DNA of 64,000 nucleotides from Nitrospirota bacterium (GTDB taxonomy: Bacteria; Nitrospirota; Thermodesulfovibrionia; Thermodesulfovibrionales; UBA6898), in the NCBI GenBank assembly GCA_016235245.1, contig JACRLO010000018.1, forward strand, positions 1 through 64,000. The letters are read 5' to 3'. The first letter of the stretch is position 1. The number at the start of each line of letters is the position of its first letter. Below the pieces are notes generated by a model, which was not told where the DNA came from, did not search any database, and saw only the letters and a list, made by a program, of their open reading frames with translations. The position numbers and the translations under genes are program-made. Below, one piece after another: positions 10,336 to 26,430 of this stretch.

Positions 10336-11097
10336 CTACTGCCCGGCCCTTACCTCAATTTTTCTTGTTTTTGCCTTTTCTGCCCTGGGAAGTATCAGTC
10401 GTAAAACACCATTTTTTACCGTAGCCTGGATCCTGTCCCTGTCGATCTCATCAGAAAGCGTAAAGCGGCGGTGATAGTCGCCGATGCCATACTCTGATAT
10501 GACAAGCCTCATTCCCTGAGGGATATCCGGATCTACCTTTCCATAGATTTCGAGGATGTTCTTTTCAAGGGTAATATCCACGGAAGATTCATCAACACCG
10601 GGCATATCCGCGATTACTGTCGTTTCATCCTTGCCCTCGATGATATCTACTGCCGGAGTATAGACCCGCCGCTCACGCGTCCTTTCTTCCCGTTGTTCAG
10701 CGACTGCCTCTCTCGGCAGAACGATCGTGAGCACACCCTTCTGATACTTCGCCTCAACCCTGCTGTTTTCTACCCTGAAGGGCAGAACAATATTCTTCGA
10801 AAACTGCCCGGTCCAGCGTTCCCGCCGGTGATAAGTCTCTTCAGCCTTAGGATCATCACTATGGCGTTTCCCCTTGATCGTAAGCACCTCATCAGCGACC
10901 GAGATATCAATATCCTCACGATTCATCCCTGGCACCTCGGTTGTCACAACTGCCTTGTCAGCAGAAGTCCATGCATTAACATGCGGAAAATCACGGTCAT
11001 TCTGTGAACCCATCCTCGATAAGTCCCTGCTCATTCGTTCGAACTCCCGCCAGGGGTCGATGAACCTTCCAAGTCTTTCAAATTCCGACCATAACAT
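10336..11097 (-). CDS. Small heat-shock protein with two fused alpha-crystallin domains
   Basis: An ATP-independent holdase, but with two Hsp20/alpha-crystallin domains in one 253-residue chain instead of the usual one of about 150. Domain 1 (about 40-133) contains TTEVPGMNREDIDISVADEV and ends GVLTIVLPR; domain 2 (about 147-250) contains VIADMPGVDESSVDITLEKN and ends GVLRLILPR. The join is an Arg/Glu-rich linker (AEQREERTRERR). The first domain has no typical C-terminal I-x-I tail because it runs into the linker. A CIRCE operator and a TTGACA promoter lie directly upstream, so it is probably repressed by HrcA. RBS AGGAGG precedes the ATG at 11097. Confidence 0.93.
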   Translation of the reverse strand: MLWSEFERLGRFIDPWREFERMSRDLSRMGSQNDRDFPHVNAWTSADKAVVTTEVPGMNREDIDISVADEVLTIKGKRHSDDPKAEETYHRRERWTGQFSKNIVLPFRVENSRVEAKYQKGVLTIVLPREAVAEQREERTRERRVYTPAVDIIEGKDETTVIADMPGVDESSVDITLEKNILEIYGKVDPDIPQGMRLVISEYGIGDYHRRFTLSDEIDRDRIQATVKNGVLRLILPRAEKAKTRKIEVRAGQ

Positions 11098-14138: not shown

Positions 14139-15356
14139 TCAGAAAAGGACCTGCAAAACCTCATCGATCTTTTTCAAAACCTTGATAATCCCTGCGGCCT
14201 GAGGCGCAGACAGCGACGGCAGATCGATCTTTTTCAGTGTCTCCTGCATCGCGTCAAAGGCGGGCTTTACACTCATATCATTATCCATGGAAAATTCAAA
14301 AGCCGTTTTAAGACTCTCGGAGATCTGCGAGTCTGCAGGTCTTGATGCGCCGGCCTTCTTCTTAGTCAACATCACGCAATTCCTGAAATCTCTCAGCCGC
14401 TCTGCTGCTGCCTTCATGGCATTGTCAGAATAGTTGAGCTTCTTCCGGTAGTGGCTGTACATAAGAAAGAATCGGATCTCCTGGGCAGAATAGCCTTTCT
14501 TGATGAGCATCTCCGTGTACAGGATATTACCCTTGGACTTGGACATCTTCTGGCCGTCAACATAAAGATGAGCACCATGCAGCCAGAACCGCGACATGGG
14601 ATAGGGTTTGATCGATTCAAGTATGGCAAGGGAGTAGTCATGATGCCTGTACAGGTTGTCTATGCCGCCGCAGAAGGCAGCGAGGGTTCCGCTGAAATGG
14701 CGCAGTACCATGCTGGGGTCCTGCACGTTCCATGACGGCCTTCCCTCACCCAGTTCAGTCTTCCAGCAGGCCTTTTCGCTGATCTCGCAGCCGTGCCAGA
14801 GGACGAAATCTCCGTAGTTCCACTGTATGCCGGGATAGGTGTCCTTATGGAAACGTCTCTTCTTCTTCGGCCATTTTGACATGTCCAGTCCGAACAGTTT
14901 GCCGAAGCTGCGGACCTTCAGCGGGTCAAAGTAGATATTGCCGCCGAAGCTGTATGCAATCTTTCTTTCAAGCAGCCTCTTTATGATACAGACCGATTCG
15001 TCCACACATTCAGATGCACGGGGCATATACTGGGGCACCTTCATATTCAGCAGCTTCAGTTCTTTGATGAACTGCGCAATGTTTTTGTCGGTCAGTTTCT
15101 TTACCGAAGTTCCATATTTTTCTGCCTCTCTGATAGCCTTGTCCTCGATATCAGTGACCGCCATACCGCGCTCAACCGTGAAGCCCGAATATTCAAGGTA
15201 CCGGACAAGGATATCCTCAAACAGAAAGGTCCTGAAATTGCCGATATGCGCACGCTGGTACACCGATGGGCCGCAGGTGAAGATTGAAGCACGCTTGTTG
15301 CCTACAGTCCTGAATGGTTCAAGTTTTCTGCCAAACGTATTGAACAATTTCAACAT
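14139..15356 (-). CDS. Cysteinyl-tRNA synthetase-like protein without two zinc ligands and anticodon domain
   Basis: A class I synthetase catalytic core: CGPSVYQRAHIGN at 28-40 (HIGH motif) and KMSKSKGN at 270-277. In true CysRS the thiol of cysteine is recognised by zinc held by Cys28, Cys209, His234 and Glu238 (E. coli numbering). Here Cys28 and the His pair (238-239) are kept, but the family block WHIEC reads WNVQD (Cys replaced by Asp213) and HHENE reads HHDYS (Glu replaced by Ser242). The protein is 405 residues against about 460 and stops just after the DALR helices, so the anticodon-binding tail is absent. MshC, the mycothiol ligase, is shorter in the same way but keeps zinc. I infer an amino-acid-activating enzyme that does not use cysteine or tRNA normally; a decayed CysRS is the alternative. 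It follows the MATE gene by 26 bases. Confidence 0.85.
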   Translation of the reverse strand: MLKLFNTFGRKLEPFRTVGNKRASIFTCGPSVYQRAHIGNFRTFLFEDILVRYLEYSGFTVERGMAVTDIEDKAIREAEKYGTSVKKLTDKNIAQFIKELKLLNMKVPQYMPRASECVDESVCIIKRLLERKIAYSFGGNIYFDPLKVRSFGKLFGLDMSKWPKKKRRFHKDTYPGIQWNYGDFVLWHGCEISEKACWKTELGEGRPSWNVQDPSMVLRHFSGTLAAFCGGIDNLYRHHDYSLAILESIKPYPMSRFWLHGAHLYVDGQKMSKSKGNILYTEMLIKKGYSAQEIRFFLMYSHYRKKLNYSDNAMKAAAERLRDFRNCVMLTKKKAGASRPADSQISESLKTAFEFSMDNDMSVKPAFDAMQETLKKIDLPSLSAPQAAGIIKVLKKIDEVLQVLF

Positions 15357-15382: not shown

Positions 15383-16753
15383 TTATTCAACCTTCAGATG
15401 TTTCCACGATCCTTTATGGAACCGCGCTGACATTAGTATACCCTGTATACACATTGATATGACCATGGCCATCCAGACGCCTGAGGCGCCGTAATGCAGG
15501 ACAAGCGCAAAAAACCATGCAAGAGGAAGTCTGATAAGCCACATGCATATACCGATCACCTTCAGAGTGCCCCGCGTGTCTCCTGCGCCCTGGAGCGCAC
15601 CACCAAGAATAGCACTCATGGCCATAAAGGGTTCTGAAAACATATTGAACCGGAGATACCGCTCAGTCTCTTCAAGCACGTCCTGCCTGCTGGTTAGCAA
15701 TGAGGCAAGCTGCCCGGCATTCAGGAAAAAGACAAGAGACAGCACGCTTATAATAAAGGCCCCGGAAAGTGCGATCTTCCAGCCTGCCTTTTCAGCCCGC
15801 CCAGGATCGCCTGCCCCAAGGTTCTGCCCAATAAGCACCGAAGCGGCCATATTCAGGGCAAAAGCAGGCAGATAGATGATCCCTTCGATCCTGAGCCCGT
15901 TGGATATGGATGCAAGGGCAGTAATGCTGCTGTCTTCAAGCCTGCCGAGTATGTTATAAAGGACGATGCTGCCTGCATTCCAGGTTATCTGGAGCATTGC
16001 AGCAGGCCATCCTATCCGTATGATCTTCCCTATCGTCTCCACCGAGGGTTTCCATGCCTCTGCAAAGAGCGCCCTCCATCTGCTAAAGCTGAAGAAGAGA
16101 AGGTTTAAGATCATGCCGATCATCAGAGATATCGCCGTAGCGGTTGCGATCCCCTTATAGCCGAGAGCCGGAAAGGGGCCGAGACCAAAGACTAGGCAAA
16201 AAACCGTGATCACGTTGATAATGGTCACAGCAGACATAGTCATGAGCGGTTTTTTTACTTCACCACTGGCGTTGAATATGGCATTGGATATGATCAGCAC
16301 GTAGTTGGGTGCAAGGGCAAGCACAAAAATCCTGAAGAAGTCCCCGGCGATCTTTCTGATCTCGTATGGAACGCCCGCAAGGGCAATGATCTGCCTGTAC
16401 ATCAGGAACCCGGCAGTTGCAAGGATGACTGCGCAGACAAGGCTGAAGAGCAGGGACTGTCTGGCAATATGCAGCGCACGCGGATGATCATTGGCGCCGA
16501 CAGCCCTCGAAATAAGCGCAAGGGTTCCGATGCTGACTGCATTGGCAACGATGACCACAAGAAAATAGAGCTGGCTGATGAAACCGACGGCAGCCTGGAT
16601 CTGAGGGTTAAGCAGCCCGGCAACGTAGATATCCGTGAATCCGACAATAAAATTCAGGACCATGATGATCAGCATGGGCCATGAAAGCCGCCAAATGCTT
16701 TTCCAGAGACTCCCTGAAATGATACTTGCCTGCACTACCCGCGTCACTGACAT
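15383..16753 (-). CDS. MATE family efflux transporter
   Basis: A 456-residue inner-membrane exporter with twelve predicted hydrophobic segments arranged as two MatE repeats (about 20-180 and 245-405), for example LSWPMLIIMVLNFIVGFTDI in the first and IRIGWPAAMLQITWNAGSIV in the second. MATE proteins expel organic cations, drugs or metabolites using H+ or Na+ gradients. It is the first gene of a probable two-gene unit with the CysRS-like enzyme, so the cargo could be that enzyme's product; this is inference from spacing only. Confidence 0.92.
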   Translation of the reverse strand: MSVTRVVQASIISGSLWKSIWRLSWPMLIIMVLNFIVGFTDIYVAGLLNPQIQAAVGFISQLYFLVVIVANAVSIGTLALISRAVGANDHPRALHIARQSLLFSLVCAVILATAGFLMYRQIIALAGVPYEIRKIAGDFFRIFVLALAPNYVLIISNAIFNASGEVKKPLMTMSAVTIINVITVFCLVFGLGPFPALGYKGIATATAISLMIGMILNLLFFSFSRWRALFAEAWKPSVETIGKIIRIGWPAAMLQITWNAGSIVLYNILGRLEDSSITALASISNGLRIEGIIYLPAFALNMAASVLIGQNLGAGDPGRAEKAGWKIALSGAFIISVLSLVFFLNAGQLASLLTSRQDVLEETERYLRFNMFSEPFMAMSAILGGALQGAGDTRGTLKVIGICMWLIRLPLAWFFALVLHYGASGVWMAMVISMCIQGILMSARFHKGSWKHLKVE

Positions 16754-24267: not shown

Positions 24268-24719
24268 GATCCGGAAGGCTTTGCTATGATAGTGACATTG
24301 TCACCATTTCTGACTGTACCGCCTTTGATGACCTTGATAAAAATGCCCTCTTTCGGCATGACACAGTCTCCTGCCTGATAGTAGATTGCACAGCGGGTAT
24401 GACATTCCTTACCGATCTGGCTCACCTCGGCGATAATATCCTGCCCAATCTGCAGGCGTGTTCCTATAGGCAGGGAAACAAGGTCAATGCCTTCGGTGGT
24501 GATATTCTCCGCAAAGTCTCCAGCCTTCACATCCAGGCCCTTGTCCTGCATCTTCTTTATGCTTTCGCGTGCGAGGAGACTGACCTGCCGGTGCCATTGC
24601 GAGGAGGCGTGGGCATCTCCCTCAATACCGAAATCCGTGCGGAGCACCGCCGCTTCAACAGGCTTCTTCCGCATCCCTTTCTTCTCGCTGATATTAATAG
24701 ATACTACTTTGGCTTGCAT
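24264..24719 (-). CDS. MOSC domain protein
   Basis: A 151-residue stand-alone MOSC domain, a fold that handles sulphur or molybdenum cofactor, as in the C terminus of MoCo sulphurase and YiiM. The conserved Cys region is [17 protein letters not shown], and [10 protein letters not shown] is the typical early motif. Overlap with mogA supports a molybdenum-cofactor role. Its first 16 bases are overlapped by the frameshifted 3' end of ahcY. Confidence 0.9.
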
Positions 24720-26320
24720 GCCATTAGACTACCACAGAGGTTCTCAAGGGGACAAGATACGAAGGGCCAAACGTGTCTACTCTTCGACATAAAAAAGGCC
24801 ATATCCCTTATTCTTCCGGGATACGGCCTTTTAATGATTATTCGATGAAAACTGTTACGTGCCTTCCTGCCAGCTTGCGAGGTAATTCTTCTGTGCAGTG
24901 GGATGGATATATTCATCCCCGCCGCAAGGTTATGCTGATAACTACCGGCTAATAGCGGTAGTGCTCGGTCTTGTACGGTACGTTCAGCGGCACGCCGATA
25001 TAGGCGGCCTGCGCATCGGTGAGCGTCGTCAGCTGCGCGTTGAGCTTCCTCAGCTGCAGGCGCCGGATACTTTTTGGAGCCCTTCTGCGCTTCAGTCCAC
25101 AACTCGATCTGCGCGATGGTCTGGTTGGCGAAGGAGGACGACATCACGTAGGATGGATGACCCGTGGCGCAGCCGAGGTTCACCAGGCGGCCTTTGGCCA
25201 GCAGAATGATGCGGTGCCCATCGGGGAAGATTACGTGGTCGACCTGCGGCTTGATCTCCTCCCACTGGTATTTCTCGATCGAGGCGACGTTGATCTCGGA
25301 ATCGAAGTGGCCGATGTTGCAGACAATGGCCTGATCCTTCATCTTCACCAGGTGCTGGTGGTCGATGACGTGGTAGTTGCCGGTGGCGGTGACGAAGATG
25401 TCAGCCTTGTCGCACGCGTAGTCCATGGTGACGACGCGATAGCCTTCCATCGCCGCCTGGAGCGCGCAGATCGGATCGATCTCGGTGATCCAGACCTGGG
25501 CCGAGAGCGCCCGCAGCGCCTGGGCCGAACCCTTGCCCACGTCGCCGTACCCGCAGACCACGGCGATCTTGCCAGCGATCATGACGTCGGTGGCGCGCTT
25601 GATGCCATCCACGAGCGATTCGCGGCAGCCGTAGAGGTTGTCGAACTTGGACTTGGTGACCGAGTCGTTGACGTTGATCGCGGGGATCCTGAGTTCGCCC
25701 TTCTCGTGCATCTGGTAGAGGCGATGCACGCCCGTGGTGGTCTCTTCCGTGACACCCTTGATCTGCGCCAGACGTGTCGAGTACCACTTCGGGTCCTGCT
25801 TGAGCTTCTCCCTGATGCTGGCGAACAGCACTGTGGCTTCCTCGCTGTCCGGCTTGTCGAGCACCGTGATGTCCTTCTCAGCCTTCGATCCCAGGTGCAG
25901 GAGCAGCGTGGCGTCGCCGCCGTCGTCGAGGATCATGTTGGAATAGCCGCCGTCCGGCCATTCGAAGATGCGGTGCGTGTAATCCCAGTATTCGGGCAGG
26001 GTTTCACCCTTGACCGCAAACACCGGCGTGCCGCCCGCTGCAATGGCCGCGGCCGCGTGGTCCTGCGTCGAAAAAATGTTGCATGAGGCCCAGCGCACCT
26101 GCGCGCCGAGCGCGGTCAGCGTCTCGATCAGCACAGCGGTCTGGATCGTCATGTGCAGGCTGCCGGTGATGCGCGCGCCTTTCAGGGGCTGGCTCCTGGC
26201 GTATTCCTCGCGGATGGCCATGAGACCTGGCATCTCGGTTTCGGCGATCTTGATCTCTTTGCGGCCCCAATCAGCCAGTTTGATGTCTGTGATAACGTAG
26301 TCTTTTGCTGCAGTAGTCAT
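24704..26320 (-). CDS. ahcY: Adenosylhomocysteinase with frameshifted, read-through C terminus (likely broken)
   Basis: SAH hydrolase splits S-adenosylhomocysteine to adenosine and homocysteine. From the ATG at 26320 (RBS GGGAGG) the protein is normal through the NAD domain ([19 protein letters not shown]) to [15 protein letters not shown]. It then goes out of frame at about 25060. In the +1 frame the DNA encodes the true family ending ([20 protein letters not shown] ... HYRY, stop at 24949). About 44 bases corresponding to the VGVYVLPKKLDEEV segment are missing. The C-terminal Lys-x3-Tyr that closes the neighbouring subunit's NAD site is therefore lost, replaced by about 120 unrelated residues that run across a terminator. 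GC-rich codon use and a SAH riboswitch suggest transfer from a proteobacterium. An assembly error is the alternative. Confidence 0.85.
24791..24832. terminator. Bidirectional terminator, now inside the extended ahcY frame
   Basis: AAAAGGCCATATCCC and GGGATACGGCCTTTT form a 15-bp stem with one G-T pair. On the minus strand CCTTTTTT follows. It lies 117 bases past the original ahcY stop (24949), where a terminator would be expected, confirming that the current read-through ORF is secondary. Confidence 0.85.
25058..25068 (-). other. Deletion/frameshift junction in ahcY
   Basis: On the coding strand AAG TAT CCG is followed directly by GCGCCTGCAGCTGAGG. In intact homologues codons for about 15 residues lie between Tyr-Pro and the Leu-Gln-Leu-Arg-Lys stretch. 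The lost length is not a multiple of three. Confidence 0.75.
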
Positions 26321-26348
26321 GGTATTCCTCCCATTCGGTTTTTTGAAT

Positions 26349-26430
26349 GGGCGCCGTTTCTGTTGAACCACTCCATCGAGCCTGACAGACGCACCTTCCG
26401 GTGACTGCTGCAGCGCCCCTCGACGCAGTC
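26349..26430 (-). promoter_or_regulatory. SAH riboswitch upstream of ahcY
   Basis: On the minus strand the conserved blocks occur in order: TCGAGGGGCGCTGCAGC (26423-26407), a CACC-GGAA-GGTG hairpin, GTCAGGCTCGA, and AACGGCGCCC (26358-26349). GGGCGC/GCGCCC forms P1, and CGAG with CTCG can form the pseudoknot. These match the S-adenosylhomocysteine riboswitch, which turns on ahcY when SAH accumulates. It ends 28 bases before the ahcY start. Confidence 0.88.

Follow-up and report, generated by a model that had tools for sequence, protein, structure and literature searches.

The window, by which we mean the whole 64,000-nucleotide stretch of DNA that was analyzed, encodes a 405-residue protein that, in our judgment with high confidence, belongs to a separate, functional family other than the cysteinyl-tRNA synthetases (CysRS). 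The clade is best read as a previously undescribed family of CysRS-derived aminoacyl ligases, and a literature search found no published description of it. Its fold, its ATP-binding motifs, the residues Gly29, Ser31, and Thr68, the loss of the anticodon domain, and a fixed rebuilding of the amino acid pocket were either observed directly or strongly supported. The explanation that we favor, an aminoacyl ligase that depends on ATP, whose side-chain selection has changed, whose acceptor is not tRNA-Cys, and whose product is exported in bacteria, has in our estimate about an even chance of being correct as a whole. The features of the window that bear on it are as follows.

14139 to 15356, minus strand: CysRS-like aminoacyl ligase without an anticodon domain, 405 amino acids (open reading frame, Pfam tRNA-synt_1e match, and AlphaFold2 model)
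15273 to 15275, minus strand: Cys28, the first zinc-ligand position, kept (81/81 family members)
15237 to 15248, minus strand: HIGN (the HIGH motif), residues 37 to 40 (HIGN in 81/81 members covering it)
14829 to 14873, minus strand: family-specific basic loop WPKKKRRFHKDTYPG, residues 162 to 176, with Lys/Arg at 165 to 167 and 171
14718 to 14732, minus strand: WNVQD (canonical WHIEC), residues 209 to 213, with Asp213 standing where canonical CysRS have the second zinc Cys
14631 to 14645, minus strand: HHDYS (canonical HHENE), residues 238 to 242, with His238 retained and Glu replaced by Ser
14535 to 14549, minus strand: KMSKS, residues 270 to 274, intact in the sequence
14154 to 14426, minus strand: C-terminal helical (stem-contact/DALR-type) region, residues 311 to 401, with which the chain ends (helices in the AlphaFold2 model)
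15383 to 16753, minus strand: MATE efflux transporter, directly upstream of the ligase gene with a 26-bp gap (Pfam MatE, 160.5 bits; TIGR00797, 218.9 bits)

The open reading frame starts with an ATG at position 15356 and ends with a stop codon at 14139 to 14141 on the minus strand. Its product matched the Pfam family tRNA-synt_1e (PF01406) with 229 bits, scored 289.7 bits against the NCBIfam profile cysS (TIGR00435), below the curated cut-off of 340, and scored 169.3 bits against the MshC profile (TIGR03447), below the curated cut-off of 485.1. Residues 1 to 402 aligned with residues 1 to 392 of the 461 in E. coli CysRS (1LI5), and because the alignment stops there, the anticodon domain is absent. 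The full-length relatives (n = 77) were 401 to 425 amino acids long, which, together with the alignment, bears out the original prediction that the chain stops after the helical region and has no anticodon domain. The AlphaFold2 model (pLDDT, 94.5; pTM, 0.93) had as its top PDB matches the CysRS structures 8qhp and 1u0b, with a TM score of 0.89 of the query; MshC ranked lower, with a TM score of 0.83.

Relatives with 40 to 85% identity came from several groups of mostly uncultured bacteria and archaea: Nitrospirota, deltaproteobacterial lineages, Spirochaetota, Bathyarchaeota, and Methanofastidiosa-type archaea. Among the genomes sampled, the family was present in 22 of 296 from the phylum of the window, 12 of 395 from the phylum of a deltaproteobacterial MAG (G321), 13 of 247 from the phylum of a Spirochaetaceae MAG (G331), 28 of 251 from the class of a Bathyarchaeum MAG (G324), and 9 of 61 from the class of genome G326; the last four counts were read from match lists, with full-length CysRS (frames of ~460 to 510 amino acids) excluded. 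In a tree that included CysRS and MshC, all sampled members formed one separate clade with a bootstrap support of 100/100 and with Asp213 fixed, and the nearest outsiders were full-length CysRS of Spirochaetota and Bathyarchaeota (L199 and L113), which have intact zinc ligands. Members of different phyla were nested in places, as with deltaproteobacterial sequences within Nitrospirota, a pattern that suggests horizontal transfer of the family between phyla. In a search of plasmids and phages, the matches listed were all below 60% identity, those of full length at about 32% or less, and no family-like sequence was among them.

The HIGH motif, which had been described as intact, actually reads HIGN, in the window protein and throughout the clade; this is not damage, because the solved structure of Borrelia CysRS (3SP1) likewise has HIGN. 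The KMSKS motif was correctly described as intact, and its residues M271 and K273 were each found in 85/85 family members. In the basic loop, R168 was conserved in 84/87 and D172 in 86/87 members. The predicted change from Cys209 to Asp213 (WHIEC to WNVQD) proved to be real and is fixed in the strongly supported clade. Asp213 was kept in 86 of the 87 relatives covering the site, the lone exception being a frame-broken fragment (L064), so the substitution is not peculiar to one genome; the same position was Cys in 14/14 canonical CysRS compared. The other predicted change, from Glu238 to Ser242, is present in the window protein but is not fixed in the clade, where position 242 is mostly Asn, Thr, or Ser (N31, T31, S17, I3, L1, and V1). 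The window protein thus does not have the four-ligand set Cys/Cys/His/Glu: Cys28 and His238 are kept, and Asp213 and Ser242 are new. Asp213 is surrounded by Asn210 (85/87), Gln212 (86/87), Asp240, Tyr241, and Cys229 (83/85); H238, H239, D240, and Y241 were each found in 85/85 members, and Ser31 (81/81), Thr68 (82/82), and Trp209 (86/86) were invariant among the roughly 85 members.

In MshC, the zinc ligands are Cys43, Cys231, and His256 only, and the amino group of the substrate is held by Gly44, Thr46, and Thr83 (PMC9736012). In the alignment, these residues corresponded to Cys28, Asp213, and His238 and to Gly29, Ser31, and Thr68 of the window protein, respectively, and MshC reads HHEYS where the window protein has HHDYS. 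By this alignment, an alpha-amino-group pocket of the MshC type is retained in the clade. A missing Glu ligand does not entail a loss of zinc, because MshC, with the same Ser, is a working zinc enzyme that binds the metal with Cys/Cys/His. The sole new ligand change is that from Cys to Asp, and the neighboring residues have changed with it, Asn replacing His and Gln replacing Glu. Asp is able to ligate metal, and a metal site made of Cys28, Asp213, and His238 is plausible in the clade. Since Cys28 and His238 are invariant, a metal is probably still bound. The view that zinc was simply lost is weakened by the invariance of these two residues and by the fact that MshC itself has Ser where CysRS has the Glu ligand.

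With CysRS the family shares the catalytic fold, the HIGN and KMSKS motifs, the alpha-amino pocket, and the helical stem-contact region, and its nearest neighbors in the tree are spirochaete and bathyarchaeal full-length CysRS; it differs in lacking the anticodon domain, in having Asp for the second zinc Cys, Ser/Thr/Asn for the Glu ligand, and N/Q for the H/E of WHIEC, in its strongly basic core, and in sharing its host genomes with a canonical CysRS. With MshC it shares a length of ~410 amino acids, the loss of the anticodon domain, Ser for the Glu ligand, and the alpha-amino pocket, whereas MshC keeps the second Cys ligand, which is Asp in all intact family members covering the site, and has an acidic core. 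Orthology with MshC was rejected: a joint clade cost 31.4 log units (p-AU, 0.0004, with MshC represented by one sequence on a long branch), and the MshC profile score was far from its cut-off. The best reading is that the family works like MshC but arose separately.

In the mechanism that we favor, the enzyme would make an aminoacyl-AMP from an alpha-amino acid. Its probable Cys28/Asp213/His238 metal site would be less thiol-selective than that of CysRS and may favor an amino acid other than cysteine, the activation of which is plausible. The aminoacyl group would then be passed to an acceptor other than tRNA-Cys, and the adjoining MATE or ABC transporter would probably export the product or a derivative of it in Nitrospirota and Spirochaetota. 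The more specific proposal, that this is a new bacterial-archaeal ligase family whose Cys/Asp/His site selects a non-cysteine amino acid, so that either a new exported metabolite is made or an unexpected RNA is aminoacylated, falls a little short of an even chance.

The export step is drawn from the neighboring genes. The MATE and ligase genes were paired on the same strand at 14 loci, 13 in Nitrospirota and one in the sample from the G321 phylum (L138). Five Spirochaetota genomes had, downstream and on the same strand, a gene for an ABC ATPase with an unclassified partner that resembled an ABC permease by eye, and in one Nitrospirota genome, genes for an HlyD protein and an ABC ATPase lay downstream. 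An MFS transporter gene stood by the family gene in two genomes and a CDF transporter gene in one. Altogether, MATE or ABC exporters adjoined the family gene at about 20 bacterial loci; because unrelated exporters recur in this position, the arrangement suggests that the product leaves the cell, although transporters are common genes. No exporter neighbors were seen at Bathyarchaeota or Methanofastidiosa-type loci. A peroxiredoxin gene, identified by eye, was upstream at about a dozen Bathyarchaeota loci, and in the Methanofastidiosa types a HAD phosphatase gene was upstream and an HD hydrolase gene downstream. Elsewhere in the window, an S-adenosylhomocysteine (SAH) riboswitch (26342 to 26427) precedes an ahcY-like open reading frame (24704 to 26427, minus strand, riboswitch included) whose C-terminal part looks frame-shifted and which has a metK-like frame upstream, and a 253-residue frame at 10336 to 11097 (minus strand) resembles two tandem small-heat-shock (Hsp20) domains.

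The amino acid is very probably attached to something other than tRNA-Cys. The original prediction had named a small molecule or protein as the acceptor; a role away from tRNA-Cys is very likely, but a non-RNA acceptor is not supported, the core being unusually basic. Over the first 330 residues, the family had a median pI of 9.5 and a median net charge of +15 (45 distinct proteins), compared with +2 for canonical CysRS relatives and -12 for MshC; the charge was +20 in the window protein and -8 in the CysRS of its own genome. Family-specific Lys/Arg residues were conserved at positions 35, 63, 106, 165 to 167, 171, 237, 275, 320, 325, and 364, reaching into the helical region. A core of this kind would be compatible with RNA or another anionic acceptor, and chiefly for this we keep a tRNA-like substrate as a serious rival. 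The family would then act independently of the anticodon and, with an altered choice of amino acid, charge or modify one particular RNA, either a tRNA or a tRNA-like molecule, which we consider possible but rather unlikely.

For such an activity there are one known precedent and one predicted one. GluQ-RS (YadB), which originated from GluRS and not, as the family did, from CysRS, has tRNA queuosine as its target. Like other truncated aaRS paralogues, it has lost the anticodon-binding domain and retained the catalytic core (PMC9437257). CysRS* of Desulfobacterales is a CysRS without an anticodon domain that is in an operon with a selC* tRNA; it is located with selC*/selB*, and its predicted reaction is the ligation of Cys to the selC* tRNA, a tRNA-Cys known from Nitrospirae among others (PMC9437257, PMC7609411, PMC11415595). 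Like CysRS*, which we compared by description only, the family is a CysRS paralogue with no anticodon domain, an altered connective-polypeptide region, and a canonical CysRS in the same genome; unlike CysRS*, it is not linked to selC*/selB* at the loci examined and does not co-occur with selC*-type tRNA.

The genome of the window does contain two selC*-type tRNA-Cys(GCA) genes, besides one tRNA-Sec and one ordinary tRNA-Cys gene, and the selC*-type tRNAs have an 8-bp acceptor stem, a long variable arm, and a U discriminator. With a covariance model built from these two tRNAs, and with matches of at least 54 bits counted, selC*-type tRNA was detected in 46 of 101 related genomes; ARAGORN called tRNA-Cys(GCA) at 26 of 30 such loci and left four uncalled. 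Such tRNAs occurred in 10 of the 23 genomes with the family and in 36 of the 78 without it (Fisher P = 1.0), and the seven other genomes of the same genus all had the family (7/7) and no selC*-type tRNA (0/7). The scan for tRNAs detected none anywhere in the window or adjoining the gene at the loci examined, and no selB-like gene adjoined it at the loci inspected. The locus scans, the covariance model, and the 101-genome co-occurrence test thus revealed no link, and the family is not evidently CysRS*, falling outside it in the linkage and co-occurrence tested. As for the selC*-type tRNA genes themselves (G000:C1:168864-168957 [L069] and G000:C20:72111-72204 [L070]), each adjoins a gene for a homologous-looking small CxxGCP protein, of 111 and 136 amino acids, the 111-residue one having no Pfam match; a YedF/TusA-like gene lies by one tRNA gene, and a gene resembling the D component of 2-hydroxyglutaryl-CoA dehydratase lies by the other.

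Retention of cysteine as the substrate is a question separate from that of the acceptor, and it overlaps both our preferred reading and an RNA acceptor. The Cys28/Asp213/His238 site would in this case hold zinc, and the product would be a cysteinyl compound, for example a low-molecular-weight thiol, made convergently with MshC. MshC functions with three protein ligands and has Ser in place of the Glu, Cys28 and His238 have stayed invariant where the lack of a metal would have let them drift, and the peroxiredoxin genes of Bathyarchaeota point the same way. Against this, the clade has Asp213 fixed together with Asn210 and Gln212, an arrangement seen in none of the aligned canonical CysRS and not in MshC, and the neighbor survey found no thiol-pathway gene recurring beside the family across lineages; we regard cysteine as a doubtful substrate.

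A second, canonical cysS is present in the genome of the window (G000:C6, L001 790-2913), where it is fused behind the serine acetyltransferase gene cysE; the 707-residue fusion has 4/4 zinc ligands and scored 587.7 bits against cysS. A separate CysRS also accompanied the family paralogue in 12 of 16 other member genomes checked; of the remaining four, two were Methanofastidiosa-type archaea and two were draft genomes. In the G326 class, all nine family-bearing genomes lacked any other CysRS match, and eight of them had SepRS above the cut-off; the ninth (G327), a draft genome, had only a weak SepRS match. The family is not needed as a CysRS in these archaea, because the SepRS route can supply Cys-tRNA in eight of the nine. 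A backup or stress cysteinyl-tRNA synthetase would fit the closeness to CysRS in sequence and fold and the intact ATP-site motifs, but it is very improbable, given the missing anticodon domain, the altered cysteine pocket, the missed cysS cut-off, and the presence of canonical CysRS in most hosts and SepRS in most of the rest.

Several observations concern the other synthetases of these lineages. Open frames of ~700 to 750 amino acids at cysS in many relatives suggest that the CysE-CysRS fusion is widespread in the order. The phylum of G321 has long-frame (~780-residue) CysRS paralogues (L122 and L148 to L165), of which L122 is a cysteine-synthase-like/CysRS fusion. Some of them have altered zinc or KMSKS motifs (HCENV in L122; HHENS, with KMSKS lost, in L165; KMDEN in L159), and their synthetase half may be changing its role. 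Two SepRS genes (G1221:C39:6977-8425 and G1227:C22:1982-3424) have one in-frame TAG each, with none in relatives, possibly reflecting readthrough or sequence error.

The window gene is under strong purifying selection, with dN/dS ratios of ~0.12 (dN, 0.090; dS, 0.763) and ~0.11 (0.098 and 0.932) against its two nearest relatives. A decaying duplicate, for which only one Bathyarchaeota member split over two frames could speak (G332, L064 8001-9232; a pseudogene or a sequencing error), is virtually excluded by these ratios, the intact frames of the 77 full-length members, and motif residues that are fixed in bacterial and archaeal members alike, in keeping with the earlier argument from the catalytic motifs.

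CysRS is the textbook example of an enzyme that selects its amino acid by means of zinc and does no editing. A deep bacterial and archaeal clade that has altered exactly this zinc site in one fixed way makes the retuning of a metal-based selector testable. Automatic annotation can easily mistake the family for a second cysteine-tRNA ligase. The family would mark an unknown pathway of Nitrospirota, Spirochaetota, and Bathyarchaeota should its product be an exported metabolite, and an unknown aminoacylation should its acceptor be an RNA.
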